Under the pieces are notes generated by a model that saw nothing but the letters and a program-made list of their open reading frames with translations, searched no databases and had not been told where the DNA came from. From NCBI RefSeq assembly GCF_001485475.2, contig NZ_DF977002.1, positions 218,426 to 282,425 of the forward strand: a stretch of 64,000 nt of DNA, in the 5' to 3' direction. The translations under genes and the position numbers were made by a program. Below, piece by piece: positions 48,930 to 60,089 of this stretch. Every line of letters begins with the position of its first letter. Position 1 is the first letter of the stretch. This DNA is from Tepidanaerobacter syntrophicus. Its GTDB lineage: Bacteria; Bacillota; Thermosediminibacteria; Thermosediminibacterales; Tepidanaerobacteraceae.

Positions 48930-50294
48930 ATGAATTTTACCCGAGATGAAATAATCGAGACTATACGCATGGTTCAAGCCGAACAATTGGATATTAGAAC
49001 GATAACTTTGGGGATTAGTCTCAGGGACTGCTCAGGTCCTTCAGTTTCTTATACTGCCCGCAAAATTTATGACAAGCTAATGGAAAGAGGCAGCGAACTG
49101 GTGCCGATTGCTCTACAGCTTGAAAAGGAGTTTGGCATTCCTATTGTAAATAAGAGAATTTCTGTAACTCCCATAGCTCTCGTAGCTGAAAGCTGCAGCG
49201 AAAGCGACTACGCTCCGATAGCTTCGGCTATGGACAGGGCTGCGGCAGAACTTGGCATTGACTTTATAGGGGGATTTTCCGCATTGGTTCAGAAAGGTTT
49301 TACGCCGGGGGACATGAACCTTTTAAATAGCATTCCCGAAGCTCTGTCCTCCACTTTGCGGGTTTGTGCCTCTGTAAATGCAGCCACCACAAAGGCCGGC
49401 ATAAATATGGATGCAGTACAAGCAATGGGAAGCATTATTAAAAAGACGGCACGTTTAACCGAAAAAGAAAATGGAATCGGAGCCGCTAAATTGGTAGTTT
49501 TTGCCAATGCTCCTGATGACAATCCCTTCATGGCAGGAGCATTTCACGGCCCAGGAGAGCCGGAAAGCGCCATCAATGTAGGAATTAGCGGACCGGGCGT
49601 AGTAAATACCGTTGTATCGAATCTTCCTAAAGATGCAGATTTAGGAGAAGTGTCAGAGGCCATCAAACGCATGGCTTTCAAAATCACTAGGGTCGGGGAG
49701 CTTATCGGCCGTGAGGCTTCAAGACGGTTGGGAGTTCCTTTTGGGATTATAGACTTGTCTCTTGCTCCAACTCCGTCTGTAGGAGATAGCGTGGCCAATA
49801 TATTAGAGGCGATTGGTCTTGAACGCTGCGGAGCCCCCGGAACAACAGCTGCTTTAGCGCTTTTAAACGATGCCGTTAAAAAAGGCGGAGCAATGGCAAC
49901 TTCATATGTAGGCGGTCTTTCAGGGGCTTTTATACCTGTCAGCGAAGATGCAGGCATGATACGCGCCGCAGTTGACGGAGCGCTTACATTAGAAAAACTT
50001 GAGGCAATGACCTGTGTATGCTCGGTAGGTCTTGATATGATTGCCGTTCCCGGCGATACCTCAGCCCAGACTATTACTGCTATTATTGCAGACGAAATGG
50101 CAATAGGGGTTATAAACAAAAAGACTACTGCTGTTAGAATAATACCTGCTCCGGGTAAAAAAGCAGGAGATTTTGTAGAGTTCGGCGGCCTTTTGGGAAG
50201 AGCCCCTGTAATGCCGGTGAACCCATTTGATTCGTCAGTCTTTGCCAGGCGAGGCGGGCAAATTCCACCTCCGATACAAAGCTTAACAAATTAG
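48930..50294 (+). CDS. PFL-like DUF711 (UPF0210) protein
   Basis: A 454-residue protein of the DUF711 family, with a PFL-like glycyl-radical-fold barrel. Conserved stretches include [56 protein letters not shown] and [24 protein letters not shown] precedes ATG 48930. The family is widespread with no confirmed biochemical activity. It is always near an ACT-domain gene, as here, suggesting amino acid-linked regulation of a shared complex. Confidence 0.9.
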
Positions 50295-50417: not shown

Positions 50418-50533
50418 TTATCCACAGAGTTATCAACAGCTGTTGATAACTTTAAACCTTGTCCTTAAGATTTTGTCTAAGCTGAATGCACTTTTCCACA
50501 ATGGGGATAACTTATCCACATGAATGTTGATAA
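50418..50533. promoter_or_regulatory. DnaA-box cluster in a convergent intergenic region
   Basis: Seven 9-mers resemble the DnaA box in 116 bp. TTATCCACA occurs at 50418 and 50512. TTATCAACA occurs at 50430 (+), 50441 (-) and 50525 (-). One-mismatch boxes are TTTTCCACA (50492) and TTATCCCCA (50502, -). The boxes at 50430 and 50441 form one 22-bp perfect palindrome (50429-50450). Neither neighbouring gene reads away from it, so no promoter here would be controlled. The rest of 50295-50667 holds the terminator structure at 50582-50664. Confidence 0.7.
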
Positions 50534-50581: not shown

Positions 50582-50664
50582 AAAATCCTTCGCTAGCGCA
50601 CAAATGACAAAAGCACGATTTAGTATTACATCTTACTGTCATTTTAAGCAAAGCGAAGGATTTT
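50582..50664. terminator. Long stem terminator between convergent genes
   Basis: AAAATCCTTCGCT (50582-50594) pairs perfectly with 50652-50664 around a loop that itself holds an inner AATGACA/TGTCATT stem. There is an A/T tract at each end. Confidence 0.65.
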
Positions 50665-50667
50665 GAT

Positions 50668-52173
50668 TTAATTATACAAGATTATATTTTCTCGATAATC
50701 CTGCTGTAAATCTTTTTCTAGAAACTCTAAAAATCTTATCAGCATCGCTGATGCTTCCGCACGTGTCATAATTTTGTCCGGATTGAACTTGTTATAACTG
50801 TCGCCTTCAAGAATGCCAATTTCGCGAGCTACATATACGCTATCTTTTGCCCATGATGGAATCTTGTCGTCATCGGAAAAATAAGTATAATATCCGGGGT
50901 TTGGCGCTCTATTTCCGAATCCTAAGGCGCGAATGAGAACAGTAACCGCTTCTGCTCTCGTGAGAGGGTCATTAGGTTTAAAATAGACACTTGAAACTCC
51001 TGTCATTATCCCCTTTTCTAAGCCTTCTTTTATATACTGATAATTTTTATCCTCTACCTTTACATCTTTAAAAGGCGATGTTTCAGGAGGCTGTTTTCGC
51101 CTGCTTGTCCTTGCTGTGCTTGTTTGCTCAACAGTAGGCCTTATATCGCAAGCTCTAATAACTCCTTTAATAAATTCAGCTCTAGTCATCGGTATCTCAG
51201 GCGTAAAAAATGTCTGGCTCTCATCAAATACATCCAGTGAATAAAGTTTAGTTATATATTCTTCAGCCCAGTGCCCTTTTACATCCCGGAATTTAGGAAC
51301 AACCAAACGCTCCACTTTCGGCACCATTTCTGCAGAGAGATTTACCTTGCCGCTAGAACGTTTCTTGCTGTCGATGATGCCATTTTGGATTTTTGGCATG
51401 TCGTAATCATATCTTGAAACCATCTCTCTATTAGTTGTGCGGATATATCCCCCGTCAAAGCTGGAAAGGGTGGCTTCGTTTTCGGAATATACCAATTTTT
51501 TCGTTAAGCTGTCTGACACCTGGACCTTTGCACTTCCTTCCCAGGACACCGTTTCCTGGTTGCCTTCTTCGTCAGTTACCTTTCTGTTGGAAGTTATATA
51601 ATAATTAATTATTTGAGTTTCCGTGCTTCCCCAAAAATTATTGTATCCAACATCGCCCCCGGAAATAGTAACTATTACTTGGCCCTCGTCTCGGTTTATG
51701 GTGTAATACTTTCTGCCCTCAAAATTTCCTGAGTAAAAGTCTGAGGCCGGCCTCTTGTCTATGACATCAGACTTTGAAAATTGGAAGTCCTCAAGTTCGT
51801 ATTTATCTTCACCTATCTCTATTTTCTCCGAGTACTTGCTTAAAGTAGTCTGGCCAATAACTTGCCCTTTATCATTTCGGTTATTGTAGTTTGTTGAGAA
51901 TGTAACGCTTCGGGTAAGTTTTGTTTTTACTGTACTATCATCACCGGTAAGGTTATACTTATAGGTTATAGTTTCGGTATCGCCTCGCCCACCTTCTGAT
52001 ATTGCAAGTTCGCCGGAAAATTTCATGGGCTTGCCGCTGACAAAAACCATCTCTTCATAAAGATATTCATTGTTTACACCGCCTTCAAAACCGGAAGGCG
52101 TTCCATATGCCTGAAATGGAATTGTCAAGAATACTATAAGAACAAAATATGCGGTTAGTTTTCTAATAATCAT
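50668..52173 (-). CDS. Surface protein with C-terminal SLH domains
   Basis: A 501-residue exported protein: signal peptide (KLTAYFVLIVFLTIPFQAYG), a ~280-residue beta-rich domain without recognised family, and three SLH domains from about residue 295 to the end (FRDVKGHWAEEYITKLYSLD, FKDVKVEDKNYQYIKEGLEK, FSDDDKIPSWAKDSVYVARE, each with an ITRAE-like helix). SLH domains attach proteins to the secondary cell wall polymer. It is the last gene of the four-gene operon and the only one with SLH domains, so it may anchor the assembly. Confidence 0.88.
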   Translation of the reverse strand: MIIRKLTAYFVLIVFLTIPFQAYGTPSGFEGGVNNEYLYEEMVFVSGKPMKFSGELAISEGGRGDTETITYKYNLTGDDSTVKTKLTRSVTFSTNYNNRNDKGQVIGQTTLSKYSEKIEIGEDKYELEDFQFSKSDVIDKRPASDFYSGNFEGRKYYTINRDEGQVIVTISGGDVGYNNFWGSTETQIINYYITSNRKVTDEEGNQETVSWEGSAKVQVSDSLTKKLVYSENEATLSSFDGGYIRTTNREMVSRYDYDMPKIQNGIIDSKKRSSGKVNLSAEMVPKVERLVVPKFRDVKGHWAEEYITKLYSLDVFDESQTFFTPEIPMTRAEFIKGVIRACDIRPTVEQTSTARTSRRKQPPETSPFKDVKVEDKNYQYIKEGLEKGIMTGVSSVYFKPNDPLTRAEAVTVLIRALGFGNRAPNPGYYTYFSDDDKIPSWAKDSVYVAREIGILEGDSYNKFNPDKIMTRAEASAMLIRFLEFLEKDLQQDYRENIILYN

Positions 52174-52181
52174 ACACTTCC

Positions 52182-53834
52182 CTACTTTACTAATAAGAAT
52201 TTGCCTTCAAAGTCATCTCGCAGCATATATATGCTGTCTCCTGCCTGCAGATCTTCAAAGCTTATAACCCTATCATCTTTAATCAGCAATGCTTTTTCAA
52301 TCCTTACTTTTACCGGCAGCGACTTAGGCATCCATTTTTCATTTCTACTGCTCCAGTCTTTTGCATCTGTCAGTGTAACACTGGCTCCAATAGCTCCATC
52401 ATTTTCGATTTTGTTTATTGTGCCGATGGTTACCCGCTGTCTGAGTAATGAATCCATATCCTTTTTTAATACTACAGCCGCTATTCTGTCGCCATCAGTA
52501 TAGGCGTAAGCATACCAAGATTTTCTGTCCGAAGAACTGCTTTCGCCTACCCCATAGTCCATGGCAAAAAATTCTTCCGGGGTTATTTTCTTCATTTTTT
52601 CCATGTCAAAGATGTATGTGTCATTGTCATAGTAAAGTTCTTTTTCATCGTCAAAGGATTCCCAATCATTGTGATTGAGTATAAAGAAATCTGAAAGTGT
52701 AACTTTATTTTCTAAAACACTTTCCAGTTTGCCTGAATAGAAATAATACTGACCGATATTCGAATTATTTATATCTTGATCGTAAATATATACGATGCTC
52801 GCCAATGCCTTTTCGCCTTTGCCATCGGCTACCACAAGAGCGTCTGTGCCGGGGGTCACCGAGTATCCGTCTACTATGCGTTGATTTTTTATAAAGATGG
52901 TACCCTCGTTAAAATCAATATTTCGCTTGTTCTTAAGTTCAAATGCCGATGCATACCAGTTGATTTCTTGTATTTTGTCACTAAATGTGGTCTCATATTG
53001 ACTTTTTATAACCATTTTTTCTGCCGTATCTTTTCCAAAAAAGTCCTTTGCCGCTATATAAATAGTTTTGCCTTGAAGATATTTAAGATTGTTGAAAGGT
53101 ATAGCCTTTCCCGCATAATACACCGGGAAATTTGTCAAGTAGTCTATACGCAATATATTTTTATATTCTTGCCAGCTTCCATTCTGGAAAATCTGGGCAT
53201 TTTTTAAAACCAGGGCGTCATCTACCATACTTGCAGCATCTAATTGTCCTTTGTATAAAGCTTTAATCTTAACTGAGTCTCCTTGAATTTTCATACGGCT
53301 AATAATATCAGAATCCTTTTCGTCAAAGTAAAGGCGGACCCAATCGCCCTCGTACAAAGTGCTTAAAGGCACGTTTACACTATTTTTTATGGCAATAGTG
53401 GCAGGTGTTGTATAATATGTCTCCTCTTTCCCACTTGTAAGCCTTAATATTATTTGGTCTCTGTCAATTTTTTTGATAATACCTGCGCGGACCTTTCCGC
53501 CCGGAGGAATATATCCGGGATTTTCAGTAGACCAACTTTCAAGATAGATAAGTGTATCTCTGTTATATTCTCCATATACTTCCATTCCAATTTTTAAATC
53601 ATTAAGATAGACGGGTATCTGATCTATGTTTAAAGCTGTGTCCGCTGTGACTTTAAACTGCTTTTGATTTCCGTTGTATTCTTCTACCTTAATCCAAGAT
53701 TCTTGGGTATTCATGTCTATTATATAGCCTTCAAGGCTCTGTGCTGCAAGGGCTGTTTTTTTATCTTGCAGAAAAGGCAGCAGCATCCCGCAAAGTATTG
53801 CAAAGATCAGTAAAACAGTTTTGAGTTTTTTCAC
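52182..53834 (-). CDS. Exported beta-barrel repeat protein of the surface operon
   Basis: A 550-residue protein starting at GTG 53834 (SD AAGGGGG, 9 nt). A signal peptide ends at TALAAQ. The mature part is a series of about six similar beta units (GYIIDMNTQESWIKVEE, AGIIKKIDRDQIILRL, GQLDAASMVDDALVLK, DKIQEINWYASAFELK, GKLESVLENKVTLSD, GTINKIENDGAIGASV), each about 70-90 residues. They resemble the repeats in the major S-layer protein. I recognise no catalytic motif. It lies 6 bp after the 2082-residue gene and 8 bp before the SLH gene. Confidence 0.8.
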   Translation of the reverse strand: MKKLKTVLLIFAILCGMLLPFLQDKKTALAAQSLEGYIIDMNTQESWIKVEEYNGNQKQFKVTADTALNIDQIPVYLNDLKIGMEVYGEYNRDTLIYLESWSTENPGYIPPGGKVRAGIIKKIDRDQIILRLTSGKEETYYTTPATIAIKNSVNVPLSTLYEGDWVRLYFDEKDSDIISRMKIQGDSVKIKALYKGQLDAASMVDDALVLKNAQIFQNGSWQEYKNILRIDYLTNFPVYYAGKAIPFNNLKYLQGKTIYIAAKDFFGKDTAEKMVIKSQYETTFSDKIQEINWYASAFELKNKRNIDFNEGTIFIKNQRIVDGYSVTPGTDALVVADGKGEKALASIVYIYDQDINNSNIGQYYFYSGKLESVLENKVTLSDFFILNHNDWESFDDEKELYYDNDTYIFDMEKMKKITPEEFFAMDYGVGESSSSDRKSWYAYAYTDGDRIAAVVLKKDMDSLLRQRVTIGTINKIENDGAIGASVTLTDAKDWSSRNEKWMPKSLPVKVRIEKALLIKDDRVISFEDLQAGDSIYMLRDDFEGKFLLVK

Positions 53835-53840
53835 CTGCCA

Positions 53841-56800
53841 TTACCCCCTTGTTCCAAAAACTGCGTATTTGCCCAGCCGGTTAATTGTTGTCTTAACCGA
53901 CACATCGGGACCGCTGTATCTTTCATAAATGCTCGTCCAATCTCCTTTAGCATCATCGTAGCGGTACAAGGCAATGTTAGTTATTTTTCTTAGATTAGCT
54001 TTAGCCCTGTCAAAATCAACGCCAAATTGCATTGAGTCGTTTAAATAATCTAAATCAAATGTGTCGCTTCCTACATAAAGCCCTGCTTTCATTAACAATT
54101 GGCCGGAAAGAAGGGTGCGATTTCCAAATCCTGTGCTTTCTGTGCCATAAGTTATTTCAAATCTTACTCCCGTATTGTCTTTGTCTTCATACTGCCGAAC
54201 TTTAGATGTATAGAAGGCTTTAGGATTGAATTTTAATGTAAAATCTTTCCCCAGAATAGTTATATCACCGGAGTTGGATTTTGATATTATCTCTACAGGC
54301 ATCGTAATCGTCACAGTATTTGCGCCTAGGAAATTGCTGTCCACAAGATTTACGGTAATGTCTTTTCTATAATCTTTGGTTCCTATAACTATGCGCACAG
54401 TATTGCCGATTTTTTCTGTGGTAGTTTCTTCCACAAGGCCTCCATCTTCATCTGAAGGCCCTACCCTGCCGCCTGTTCTTACGGTGTTGCTTTCGGCGGA
54501 GGGAGGCGAAGATCCGAAATCACCCAGGGCTTTTACTACAAATTTATACATGGTATAAGGCTCTAAATCGCTATAAACGAAGCTGGTAAGTTCAGTATTT
54601 CCAACAAAGTCTATATTATTGTCATCGACTACAGCATAAATTTCGTAGCCTTTGGCGCTTTCTACTGCTGACCAACTTATTTTAATATAGCGGTCATATA
54701 CAAGTTCTGCTGTTACATTCATAGGAGCGCTAAGTTCCGGCAGTCCATAAGTAAGCTGCTCGTAAATGTCAGTGGCGCCGCCGTCCGGATTTATTACTAA
54801 GACACCTTTACTGTCAAGTTTTGCCGGTGCGGTTATGACAGTTATTGTTTGAGAATCTATGACATTTACACCAGTGCCATCAATGCCGTTTTCCAATAGA
54901 TAGGGTATACCATCTACATAGACTATGGTGCCTGATGCGTCGCTTTCGCTATCAATTTTTTTAAGGCTTGGCGCAAATATTACTCGTGCTCCCGTCATAA
55001 AGCCCGTGCCCTTTATCTTTATCCTTTGGCCACCGTTTATCGAAATTCGTGTAATCTTAGTGGTTTCGGAAGGATCTGTAGGATCGACCACTGCAGATAT
55101 TTTGGGAGTGCTAAGATATGTAAACTTTCCTGATGGAGCTGAAAGTTCGCCATCCGGATTTTCTACTTTTACATCCACGGTGCCTGAAGCATGGGGTGGA
55201 GTCACTGCCAGTATGGTTTTATAGTCGATAACCTGTATATTATCCTCCGGAACCGGAGTTTCTCCAAAATAAACTTTTAAACCTTCGCGAAAGTCTTTGC
55301 CTTCAATTTTTACACTAGTGCCACCTGAGGAAGGCCCTTTATCTGGCGTTATTTTGGTTATTGCAGGAGAAGTTTCTCCTTTAACAAACATAATATAAAT
55401 GGGTTTTGGGCTTACTTTGTCTGATGCCGCCTGCCCGCCATCTTCGTTAATAACAACTAATCTGTGGAGCTTGCCTACAGCGCTTTCCGGAACTTGAGGC
55501 ATTGTAAATGTAAGTTTTGTAGGAAGGGTGTAAGTTATATCTTTTGGCTCTATCGTTGCCACGTCAGAGATTTGAATCTTGGCGTTTTCTCTAAAGTCGC
55601 CGCCGATAACGCTTACCGTATTTCCTCCCTTATATGTTAAATATAAGACTTTTATATCTCTGCCGTTTATATTCGCATCTTCGGGAGATTTTCCTTCTTT
55701 AGTTAGATTTACAATATACGGACTGCTGGCAGGATATTTATACATAAAAGTGCTCTGAGCAGTTCCACCATCAGGATTTATCAAGGTAACCTCTACCTGC
55801 CCGATAGTATAATATGCAGGCGTCGTTACAACAAGCTGGCCACTATTTAAGAATTCTACTTCTGGTGCATATCCCCGCTCCACAAACAATCTCCTGTCGG
55901 AAATTTCAAGGCGAATAAGCTCACTGTAAGGATAAGGGTTTGTTCCTTCTGCTTTTAATAGTCGTGTTGAAACAAACATGGCATTTCCGTCAAAGGGTAT
56001 GGGATTTAATGTTACAAACTCACGGCCGCCTTCTGAAAGCGTAAGGTATATTTTGCCATTGGCATATTCTACCCTAAGACCTCCTGCAAGGTTTACAGTG
56101 GTCCGCTGATTGTCTATCCTGCCTGAATTTTCTTCTTCTCTTGGAATATTGCGATTGGTGATATTCCCAAATCGAATTGCTGCCATCTGCTTTAAATTTA
56201 CTGCTCCATCTGCATCAACTATCCTCATATCGCTTTGCGCAAAGCCGGAGCCGAAAACCTCCACCCGGTCGCCGCCCTGTTTTTTACCTTCAGAGGGTAC
56301 TATCCGAGTTATGACAGGCTTCGTGGATGTATAGGTATATTTTACTTTGTTTGATATTCCGGAATCATTGTTTACTATATAAACATCTACTGTGCCGGCA
56401 GATGCTGCCGGAGTCTTAACTTTTAAATATCCGTCAGCAAATTCTACTATTTCGGCTGTCTGATTTCCAAAATATATTTTCGGCAAAACCGACAACACTA
56501 TTTTGTCAAAATTTTCTCCATAATAGTCTTTCAGGTTTTGAATAATGTCCTTGTTTTCGTCAAAAGAATTGCCAAGTCTTTCCTTTACCGCGGAAGGTCT
56601 GAAATCATCCCATATACCGTTGCCGTTTAAATCTTGATATATCTCATTTTCATCTTTGATTTGATTTCTGTTATCATCGTTGTAAGGTTCAAAATATCTA
56701 AAATCGCTGCCTGTTATTTCGACAATTTGCTTGCCGGCAGCACTGCCTTGAGACGGCACTACCCGAGTTATGCGAGGATAACTGGTGGGTACCATGTATG

Positions 56801-59800
56801 TAAAGCCATCTTCCTTGCCAGCGCTTGCACCGTCAGGATTTAACACTACTACGGGAACTGTTATGCGATCCGTCCCTTTTTCCTTTGATAAATCGCCGCT
56901 GAAGGGAGGCACTTTTACTGTTATGGTTTTTCCATCAACACTTACAATTGTATCTTCTTTTTTAACTTCTACACCGTTTATAAAAACCTTAGACTTATAT
57001 GTGCCGTCATCTTTAAAGTCTTCACCTATAATATCTACAGTATATCCTCCGTCAGTCGAACCTTTGTCAGGGACAATTTTAACGATTTTAGGTCTTGATT
57101 GGGGCTGAGTATAGTAATAAAAACCTTGGGTGCCTGTTCGGCTATCTCTTTTGGTATCCGGATTTAGTACTGTTAGGTCATAATAACCGTCACCTGCGGA
57201 AAGTTTCGGCACTTTAAATATAATTTTATTCTTGTCAATTACTTTTACGTTATTGCCAACTATAACACCGCTGTCATCGACTTTATATAAAGTCTGCATA
57301 TAGAGTTTGATGCTCGGGTTTTCTTTTATTAAAAGTGTAGTGACTTTTACATCTTTGCCGTTGATAATTTCATTTACTGTATCAATTTCAATTTTATAAT
57401 CGCTGCCTCCTTCTTTAGAGGCCATAAGTGCATAGTCATTAGAAGTATCATCATACTTTATACCTATTGTGTATGTATTTTTAACTCCGTCGGAAAGTAT
57501 GGCGTTTCCTTGAAAATCCTGCTTTAGTGTGTAAAACTTGTCTTGGGAATCTTTGAAAACTATACTGTGCCAGTAATCAGCAATTTTCAAATACTTTCTG
57601 CCATCAACTGTTTCACCGATGCTTAAAATTTCATCGTTTTCCGGTGATGCATAATATTGCAGTGTGATGCGCTTAGTTTCCGGATCAGTATTGTATTCAT
57701 TTATATCTTGATTTTGAAGAAGTATCCTTGTGCCTATCAATTTATATATTTCAGAAGTGGTTGTACCGGTAGATGTGGGATCAGGCGCAAGAAAATTATC
57801 TCCGGTAACTAAGACCAACGTGCCTGTGTTGCCTACCTTAGGAGCAAAATCAGTAATCTTCGGGTCTGTATATGTTTTGACATAATTAAACTCTTTTACC
57901 GCAATGCCGCCGCCGGGGTTTATAACCTGAAGCTGTGTAGTGCCTTCTCTGCCCGGCGGTGCTTTAAATGTTATGGTTTTGCCGTCTCCTTCTCGTCTTA
58001 TACTCGAAACTTCCTTTCCATCAATAAAAACCTTAACATCTTGTAGGAAATTACTTCCCTTTATAGTTACTGTTTCGCCGCCGCTTACGGTTACTACATC
58101 AGGAACTACGCTTTCAATAACAGGAGTTTTGTCATCCTTTGACAATATAAACTTCACCATTAGCGAACTTTCTGAAGAAAGACCGGGAACATCGGAATTT
58201 CTAACCGGATTTGTAACTACTACAGGAACATTTGTGTTTACATATTCTTCAGGAATTTTGGTGTCTTTCGGTATTGTCAAAAGAATCCTGGTGCCTGCTT
58301 CCTGGCCTGTTGAACCATCCATTATATTTCCGGCATCGTCCATTACATAAAGCTGAATATTGCTATTTTCGTTTTTATTAATTTTTACATCCCCAAAGCT
58401 TATAATTGGGTATACAGCTTTTATGGCACCATCTACTGTATATTTGTAGATTGCAAAATTCTTGCCATATATACCTATCATCAAATCTTGAGGAATTACA
58501 TATGTGCCATCGTTTTTCTTTGTTACGTGAATTTCGCCGGGCACTATGCTGTTTGCTTCAGGCTTTATCCTGCTGGGTATAAAAGTATAGCCTTTTGGAA
58601 GCTCTGCTCTTTCAGTAAAAAGGTATTCCTTTTCATTACTGCCTATGACAATTCTCGTAGTGGTTTCCACTACTACATCTTTTACTGGATTGCTCTCATT
58701 GGTATCAGCATTTATCTTTACCGCAAGCTTGTCTATATCTGGAGAAAAAGTGGAGCCTTCTTTAATGACATCTGCTTGAGGACCTATTATCACTTTTATT
58801 GTTTTTTCAACTGTTGTTACAGGTAAGTTTCGATAAGTTCCGACAGCTGCATTATCACTGCTTTTATATGTTAATTTCATAACGCCATCTGATAAAATGT
58901 CTATGTTCGGAAGGCAGTTTTCATCAATTTGTAAATCATCTATATTAAGGCTTCCCAGGTATCTTCCGGTAATGGTAGCTGTAGAGCCGGTATCAGGTCC
59001 TTTGTTGGGCTGTATAATATCGATTTTTGCACTTTTAGATCCTTGGATTACGGTAAATTTTTCCTTTTGATATATATACTCTCCGGAGACTGCCTGCATT
59101 GGATCTTTATAATCGGGAACCTGGTTTGTAAGGACCACCCAATACTCTCCCGGCGTAATATCAGGCACTTCAACGGTAAATACATATTTGCCGTCATCGG
59201 TTTGCTGGAGGGGGCTGGGGTTTTTCCCCTTGTTTGCGGTTGTATAAGGATCTGTGCCGTCTGTAGCTTTCAAGAAATATACATCATATTGGCGCAGCTG
59301 ACTTGCTTTAAAATATACTTTTCCGCCTTTTGCGCCTCTGTTAGGAAACATTTCAATGTCAGTAGATATATTCAAATCCTCCACCAGACGAAATTGGCCG
59401 TTATATGTGTGGTTTATGGTAATTTTGACTTTTTTTCCAGAATTCAAATCATTAAATTTTATAGGATCAGTATCGAATTTCCTGGTAATCTCTATGTCTT
59501 GAAGGCCTAATTCTCCTTCTTGAAATTCATTTATCTGCGCAGGATTTGTTTTAAAGCAATCATTAGGAATGGTATTAAAAAGAACGCCTGTTCCATACTT
59601 AACTGTTATTTCGGCGGTATCTGTGATTAAATCAAAATTTGTTCCTTTTATATACAATGTTCCCATATCTTTATTTACTTTTGGAGTGACATCAGTAATA
59701 GTAGGCATAGCGCCTTTGTCGCCAATGGGAATTGAGGCATTTCCCACTACTATAGATTTAATATTCTTTAGCTTTTCCCAGTCCTCAGGTTTTGTAAATT

Positions 59801-60089
59801 CGAAATAAAGTAACCCATATGTATTAATCTTAGGGCCTTTAAGCTGTTCAAATTTAGAGCCATATTCTATAAAAACAGGAGCTCCTTCCAGCTCACTTCC
59901 TTTGATTGATAAAGACATCCCTGTGGTAAGTCTGTTGCTGTCGTGCTCTTTCCCTATAACTATTTCACTTACTGCATAGGTATCTTTATCATATCCATAT
60001 GCCAATTCTGCGTTATGCGGCACAACCATAGAAAATAGTATTAAAATCGCAAGAAGCGCCGAAATTGCTGCTCTACCTTTCTTTATCAT
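53841..60089 (-). CDS. Giant IPT/TIG-repeat surface protein
   Basis: A 2082-residue exported protein (ATG 60089, SD AGGAGGGAG; signal peptide ends near HNAELAYG). About ten IPT/TIG Ig-like domains are recognisable by P-x-I-x-x-I-x-P, GG or SGG and G-x-x-F (for example PVIESVVPDVVTVSGGETV, PKITDFAPKVGNTGTLVL, PAITKITPDKGPSSGGTS), spread over about residues 110-1750. A fibronectin type III-like domain follows (about 1780-1860). A region near 1150 has DDNRNQIKDENEIYQDLNG and DLNGNGIWDD, like calcium-binding EF-hand or type 3 repeats. The C-terminal domain ends RLGKYAVFGTRG. There is no SLH, LPxTG or catalytic motif. It probably forms a long surface fibre or adhesin. Confidence 0.85.
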   Translation of the reverse strand: MIKKGRAAISALLAILILFSMVVPHNAELAYGYDKDTYAVSEIVIGKEHDSNRLTTGMSLSIKGSELEGAPVFIEYGSKFEQLKGPKINTYGLLYFEFTKPEDWEKLKNIKSIVVGNASIPIGDKGAMPTITDVTPKVNKDMGTLYIKGTNFDLITDTAEITVKYGTGVLFNTIPNDCFKTNPAQINEFQEGELGLQDIEITRKFDTDPIKFNDLNSGKKVKITINHTYNGQFRLVEDLNISTDIEMFPNRGAKGGKVYFKASQLRQYDVYFLKATDGTDPYTTANKGKNPSPLQQTDDGKYVFTVEVPDITPGEYWVVLTNQVPDYKDPMQAVSGEYIYQKEKFTVIQGSKSAKIDIIQPNKGPDTGSTATITGRYLGSLNIDDLQIDENCLPNIDILSDGVMKLTYKSSDNAAVGTYRNLPVTTVEKTIKVIIGPQADVIKEGSTFSPDIDKLAVKINADTNESNPVKDVVVETTTRIVIGSNEKEYLFTERAELPKGYTFIPSRIKPEANSIVPGEIHVTKKNDGTYVIPQDLMIGIYGKNFAIYKYTVDGAIKAVYPIISFGDVKINKNENSNIQLYVMDDAGNIMDGSTGQEAGTRILLTIPKDTKIPEEYVNTNVPVVVTNPVRNSDVPGLSSESSLMVKFILSKDDKTPVIESVVPDVVTVSGGETVTIKGSNFLQDVKVFIDGKEVSSIRREGDGKTITFKAPPGREGTTQLQVINPGGGIAVKEFNYVKTYTDPKITDFAPKVGNTGTLVLVTGDNFLAPDPTSTGTTTSEIYKLIGTRILLQNQDINEYNTDPETKRITLQYYASPENDEILSIGETVDGRKYLKIADYWHSIVFKDSQDKFYTLKQDFQGNAILSDGVKNTYTIGIKYDDTSNDYALMASKEGGSDYKIEIDTVNEIINGKDVKVTTLLIKENPSIKLYMQTLYKVDDSGVIVGNNVKVIDKNKIIFKVPKLSAGDGYYDLTVLNPDTKRDSRTGTQGFYYYTQPQSRPKIVKIVPDKGSTDGGYTVDIIGEDFKDDGTYKSKVFINGVEVKKEDTIVSVDGKTITVKVPPFSGDLSKEKGTDRITVPVVVLNPDGASAGKEDGFTYMVPTSYPRITRVVPSQGSAAGKQIVEITGSDFRYFEPYNDDNRNQIKDENEIYQDLNGNGIWDDFRPSAVKERLGNSFDENKDIIQNLKDYYGENFDKIVLSVLPKIYFGNQTAEIVEFADGYLKVKTPAASAGTVDVYIVNNDSGISNKVKYTYTSTKPVITRIVPSEGKKQGGDRVEVFGSGFAQSDMRIVDADGAVNLKQMAAIRFGNITNRNIPREEENSGRIDNQRTTVNLAGGLRVEYANGKIYLTLSEGGREFVTLNPIPFDGNAMFVSTRLLKAEGTNPYPYSELIRLEISDRRLFVERGYAPEVEFLNSGQLVVTTPAYYTIGQVEVTLINPDGGTAQSTFMYKYPASSPYIVNLTKEGKSPEDANINGRDIKVLYLTYKGGNTVSVIGGDFRENAKIQISDVATIEPKDITYTLPTKLTFTMPQVPESAVGKLHRLVVINEDGGQAASDKVSPKPIYIMFVKGETSPAITKITPDKGPSSGGTSVKIEGKDFREGLKVYFGETPVPEDNIQVIDYKTILAVTPPHASGTVDVKVENPDGELSAPSGKFTYLSTPKISAVVDPTDPSETTKITRISINGGQRIKIKGTGFMTGARVIFAPSLKKIDSESDASGTIVYVDGIPYLLENGIDGTGVNVIDSQTITVITAPAKLDSKGVLVINPDGGATDIYEQLTYGLPELSAPMNVTAELVYDRYIKISWSAVESAKGYEIYAVVDDNNIDFVGNTELTSFVYSDLEPYTMYKFVVKALGDFGSSPPSAESNTVRTGGRVGPSDEDGGLVEETTTEKIGNTVRIVIGTKDYRKDITVNLVDSNFLGANTVTITMPVEIISKSNSGDITILGKDFTLKFNPKAFYTSKVRQYEDKDNTGVRFEITYGTESTGFGNRTLLSGQLLMKAGLYVGSDTFDLDYLNDSMQFGVDFDRAKANLRKITNIALYRYDDAKGDWTSIYERYSGPDVSVKTTINRLGKYAVFGTRG

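Follow-up and report, generated by a model that had tools for sequence, protein, structure and literature searches.

A DnaA-box cluster of fixed layout near oriC, conserved across the Thermosediminibacterales, as a putative DnaA assembly or titration site

DnaA sites outside the replication origin are known mainly from Escherichia coli and Bacillus subtilis. In E. coli, DnaA boxes are enriched near oriC and titrate DnaA (PMC12371093). In B. subtilis, the deletion of six DnaA-box clusters together leads to early initiation (PMC5295017), and its eight strong DnaA sites include the cluster downstream of gcp (tsaD) (PMC4447404), so clusters at tsaD may be old. Both halves of the bipartite origin are essential in vivo (PMC6669920); those of B. 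subtilis tolerate a separation of about 9 kb with no effect, and the maximum separation has been named an open question (PMC4207641).

Here, we describe a cluster of DnaA boxes in Tepidanaerobacter syntrophicus. The window, by which we mean the whole 64-kb stretch of DNA that was analysed, lies on contig C8. A first-pass annotation of the window had noticed five exact and two one-mismatch boxes within 116 bp between convergent gene ends, and all seven were found where it had placed them. The features of the locus are as follows.

48930..50294, + strand: DUF711 gene (454 aa), running towards the element; in other genomes of the order it is not always the neighbour
50418..50449, strands +,+,-: module A, comprising boxes 1-3
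50418..50426, + strand: DnaA box 1, TTATCCACA; unchanged in all 22 genomes searched in the order
50430..50438, + strand: DnaA box 2, TTATCAACA here and TTATNMACA in relatives; constant offset of 12 bp from box 1
50441..50449, - strand: DnaA box 3, inverted relative to box 2, with a 2-bp gap
50450..50491, no strand: spacer of 42 bp (41-43 bp in 22/22 genomes); letters diverged, length kept
50492..50500, + strand: DnaA box 4, TTTTCCACA here, one mismatch; TTWTCCCCA or TTGTCCCCA in relatives
50502..50510, - strand: DnaA box 5, TTATCCCCA on the minus strand; inverted, 1 bp from box 4; identical in 20/22 genomes
50512..50520, + strand: DnaA box 6, TTATCCACA; 94 bp after box 1 (93-95 bp in 22/22 genomes)
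50525..50533, - strand: DnaA box 7, TTATCAACA; box-like only in part of the family
50582..50664, no strand: inverted repeat AAAATCCTTCGCT...AGCGAAGGATTTT, arms at 50582-50594 and 50652-50664; outside the conserved element
50668..52173, - strand: S-layer-homology (SLH) gene, running towards the element; final gene of a run with 550-aa and 2082-aa genes

The five boxes that match TTATCMACA exactly (50418+, 50430+, 50441-, 50512+, and 50525-) are the only exact DnaA boxes of the window, and the one-mismatch boxes are TTTTCCACA at 50492+ and TTATCCCCA at 50502-. The genome-wide count that the first-pass annotation proposed gave 80 exact boxes in 2.43 Mb, with 50418-50533 as the densest exact-box cluster; if these 80 boxes were placed randomly, about 5e-10 clusters of this size with at least five boxes would be expected. 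In 60 first-order Markov versions of the window, the maximum per 116 bp was two exact boxes, or three at the one-mismatch level, against five and seven observed. Boxes 2 and 3 (about 50430-50449) do form the palindrome that had been described as perfect, but only in this genome is it perfect, and relatives keep the inverted pair only. At the site of box 7, other lineages carry TTATCCACA on the + strand or CCACA remnants instead.

A sequence-only model was built from ten copies and searched in 22 genomes of the order, each of which contains exactly one strong copy (22/22, E<=1.2e-16) of 103-116 bp; conservation in related strains, which had been put forward as a check, is thus found across the order. 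The region 3' of the DUF711 gene in relatives, for example, carries the same cluster. With box 1 (+) at 0, the layout is box 2 (+) at 12, box 3 (-) at 23, box 4 (+) at 73-75, box 5 (-) at 83-85, and box 6 (+) at 93-95, and the order and orientation of these six boxes are fixed in all 22 genomes. The commonest letter has a share of 0.93-1.00 in each box versus 0.67-0.74 in the spacer, which contains a family-conserved TTGTCC/TGTCCC motif. In a phylum-wide search of 398 genomes, the model matched 60, and the 12 strong matches all fell within the order. Among the loci opened for the weak matches outside it, many were oriC1, the box cluster between rpmH and dnaA, or an isolated module A, and therefore we do not claim a wider presence of the element. 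The cluster is a real, conserved element, and in all likelihood a functional one. In the open-access literature we found no publication that describes it; extra-origin DnaA-box clusters are a known kind, and what is new is the layout fixed across an order.

The conserved letters are the boxes themselves, and this bears on the reading of the locus as a structured RNA or transcription terminator in which words like DnaA boxes occur by chance. The palindromic segments do fold, but both sides changed in only 2 of 20 predicted pairs, the covariation term was unfavourable, and no Rfam family reached threshold. On covariation and Rfam we reject this reading, which has hardly any probability left. As for the inverted repeat at 50582..50664, it may possibly serve as a two-way terminator for the converging genes.

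The genes around the element offer another explanation. In the window and in near relatives, the element sits between the DUF711 gene, which ends at 50294 (+), and the SLH gene, at 50668 (-), and the observation that the cluster lies between convergent gene ends was correct. The conclusion drawn from it, that the cluster is not a promoter operator, holds in the window but does not carry over to seven other inspected genomes (G003, G005, G007, G011, G014, G016, and G018), where about 140-415 bp separate the element from a giant IPT/TIG-like gene or operon downstream of it, or from the extra first gene of that operon. DnaA bound at the element might accordingly control a neighbour, mainly the giant IPT/TIG-SLH operon, just as B. 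subtilis DnaA regulates sda, ywlC, and other genes (PMC4447404). Against such an operator, the element of the window and its near relatives is found between convergent ends, at the far end of the same operon, and in G013 it is near pdxS, with the IPT/TIG operon not adjacent; we regard this explanation as improbable. In G016, the SLH...TIG run separates the element from the DUF711 gene, which precedes it by about 11 kb, and therefore the element has switched sides of this run with its orientation unchanged. A fixed gene partner as the cause of conservation is rejected, as the neighbours differ among genomes. The shared factor is a position near oriC rather than a gene.

Some features of the surroundings may be recorded here. 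At 52182-60089, adjoining the SLH gene, the window encodes a 550-aa protein without a Pfam match and a 2082-aa IPT/TIG-like protein, and in much of the order this 550-aa/2082-aa/SLH gene run is again found next to the element. In L106, L108, L109, and L110, two T-box-leader-like stretches (GGGTGGTACCGCG) follow the DUF711 gene and precede an aminotransferase-like gene; in the genomes that have them, the DnaA element does not adjoin the DUF711 gene.

Neither dnaA nor rpmH is present in the window, as was noted at the outset: both are on contig C6, side by side and divergent. In the dnaA-dnaN gap there are four exact boxes as well as a DnaA-trio (CCCCTACTACTATTACTACTA) with AT-rich DNA after it, which is the arrangement of C. 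difficile and other clostridia (PMC7561715). In other words, the proper origin of this genome is the dnaA-dnaN intergenic region (oriC2), and its unwinding site is intact. A DnaA-trio is present at oriC2 in every genome of the order inspected, and this counts against the idea that the element is a second or backup chromosomal origin. The idea draws on the density of DnaA boxes and on the AT-rich DNA in which they sit. Nevertheless, a run of at least four TAY (the DnaA-trio) occurs within 250 bp of the element in 0/22 copies, and none of the 22 has a conserved AT-rich flank, the AT content of the flanks being 0.48-0.77 with no constant AT-rich side. Because no copy has a DnaA-trio nearby, the element is most probably not a second origin; on the trio and the AT-rich flank we reject this candidate, and its probability is very small.

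The position of the element relative to dnaA can be mapped in genomes in which it is on one replicon or contig with dnaA or rpmH. The complete genome of G002, from the same genus, has dnaA at about 200 and the element at 2,585,389 of 2,761,252, that is, 176 kb away on the rpmH side. The distance to dnaA is 120 kb and 70 kb in the complete genomes G007 and G013, and 114 kb, 63 kb, and 67 kb on shared contigs of G005, G018, and G016, respectively. In all six mappable genomes (6/6), the element is on the rpmH side of dnaA and reads towards it; the distance varies between 63 and 176 kb.

DnaA itself retains the box-reading signature GGRDHTTV in the 13 genomes of the order inspected. Its domain I (e.g. 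L148 141-1568, L084) reads SFNT[VFM]L in the order versus SF.TW in sister clades, the tryptophan having been lost in the same order that lost the oriC1 boxes. In G040 and G038, several small DnaA/IstB-like ATPases gave equal-scoring matches and are probably insertion-sequence helper genes.

The upstream half of the origin is where the order departs from its relatives. Its rpmH-dnaA gap is short and without exact boxes: none was found upstream of dnaA in 14 genomes of one set (the G004 locus spans 179 bp only), and none in the gap of G002, G007, G013 (record ends), the G014 stretch, or the further resolved genomes of the order, G009 being left out of the survey. In the sister families (G022-G025), the same gap contains three or four exact and 7-10 near boxes. 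Among the other outgroups, boxes are found upstream of dnaA wherever rpmH is there, and in none of four loci without rpmH. The loss of oriC1 and the presence of the element amount to one evolutionary event, a correlation without statistical weight of its own.

These observations raise the question of whether the element is a displaced part of the origin, as the first-pass annotation had suggested. A complete displaced origin finds no support, given that trio and AT-rich flank are lacking and the dnaA-dnaN site is intact, but a displaced part is a live reading, since the order lacks the rpmH-dnaA cluster and module A resembles it. On this proposal, the oriC1 (incAB-like) cluster left the rpmH-dnaA gap and still aids initiation from 63-176 kb away, by looping or by supplying DnaA. 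When the refined model R2 was run over outgroup dnaA regions, 15/15 matches other than a cluster beside tsaD in G022 fell in oriC1 and none ever in oriC2; module A (two direct boxes 12 bp apart and an inverted box) occurs in outgroup oriC1. Several of the best outside-order matches of the phylum search (L206, L210, L212, L221, and L223) are likewise just upstream of dnaA. The tolerance of B. subtilis for about 9 kb between its origin halves (PMC4207641) also speaks for a displaced half, but 63-176 kb far exceeds the separations tested there, and module A has the opposite orientation relative to dnaA. Outside the order, the matches are weak (<=36 bits, mostly module A), and any DnaA-box triplet might give them; to judge from sequence, they would fit descent from oriC1 and also a tendency of DnaA to favour such triplets generally. 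The element is not located between rpmH and dnaA, as an oriC1 is, but 63-176 kb off where mappable. Furthermore, G022 has an intact oriC1 together with the weak element-like cluster beside tsaD, and therefore the element may predate the loss it supposedly compensates. We consider a displaced half rather unlikely. That the whole order runs a split origin, with the oriC1 half in fixed geometry and orientation 63-176 kb from the unwinding half and taking a long-range part in initiation, is doubtful to the same degree.

The G022 tsaD cluster (L276 9795-9902) has boxes at 0, 12, 65, 80, and 89, all on one strand, and boxes 3 and 5 are missing; we reject it as an orthologue of the element and regard it only as a possible relative. 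The G007 genome has a cluster beside tsaB/rimI (L155 8560-8662, at 2658 kb) that is different from, and weaker than, the element. Both are in the same gene surroundings as the B. subtilis gcp-ydiF cluster and possibly represent an old Firmicutes DnaA-box cluster.

The reading that we favour, with somewhat better than even confidence, is that the element is an order-wide conserved, oriC-proximal site for DnaA assembly or titration outside oriC, like the Bacillus clusters or datA. The first-pass annotation had included a titration or replication-control locus among its suggestions, and this is the best-supported reading, in view of the order-wide occurrence in single copy, the fixed geometry, the oriC-proximal position, and the lack of a constant gene partner; the role itself stays putative. 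The distances suggest that the box starts are near whole helical turns (12, 23, 74, 84, and 94 bp). The six boxes would then form two triplets (+,+,- and +,-,+), with the boxes of each about one turn apart and the triplets about five turns apart, so that DnaA, which would bind there, should be able to join both triplets in one complex, a compact oligomer along a single face of the helix. At 63-176 kb from dnaA, replication would reach the element shortly after initiation and double it early in the cycle; the doubled element would take up (or inactivate) DnaA, draw it from oriC, and delay re-initiation. Titration and inactivation cannot be told apart by sequence. We infer that the element probably replaces the lost oriC1: it would carry the load borne by the rpmH-dnaA cluster in relatives, because that cluster is gone in the order.

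Against a sole action of the element, at least two other box clusters occur in the genus (metG-iorA and veg-ispE), and therefore the element need not act alone. The second conserved cluster, between metG and an indolepyruvate-oxidoreductase-like gene, is at C6:201163-201205 in the T. syntrophicus genome, G000 (L083 14131-14207), and at 82462-82536 in G002 (L150 6463-6536); both species have its boxes at 0+, 20+, and 34-, and dnaA is 64-82 kb away. The third is at C6:195141-195194 in G000, between veg-like and ispE-like (GHMP kinase) genes, and at 93870-93898 in G002, 70-94 kb from dnaA.

If the element acts in this way, it would seem to be a fixed control point that sets when copying starts, and it presents a small, clear target for deletion. 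An element fixed in an order whose origin has lost its upstream half is a natural experiment on the role of that half, and the same experiment bears on the distance from the unwinding site over which that half can act, which is the question open for B. subtilis (PMC4207641).

Among the known systems, the oriC2 (incC) unwinding region has DnaA boxes in common with the element, which differs in box order and in having neither a DnaA-trio nor a conserved AT-rich flank. The oriC1 (incAB, rpmH-dnaA) cluster of bipartite Firmicutes origins shares module A, whereas the element is away from dnaA, has the opposite orientation, possesses module B and a fixed 41-43-bp spacer, and lacks the dnaA promoter. 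The DnaA-box clusters of B. subtilis are, like the element, arrays of many DnaA boxes outside oriC (PMC5295017, PMC4447404); the box density of the element is above chance, and gcp-ydiF also lies between convergent gene ends, as does the element in the window. In this comparison, made at the level of description, the element differs in being a single cluster kept with fixed box order and spacing across an order, and with the same side and orientation relative to oriC. In E. coli, datA and DARS2 need sites for IHF (and Fis), of which none is known for the element. The datA, DARS1, and DARS2 loci are single-copy, non-coding, and furnished with 3-6 DnaA boxes at conserved spacing and distance from oriC (PMC4585315), and the element is alike, with 93-95 bp from box 1 to box 6 in 22 genomes and the same side and orientation in 6/6 mappable ones.
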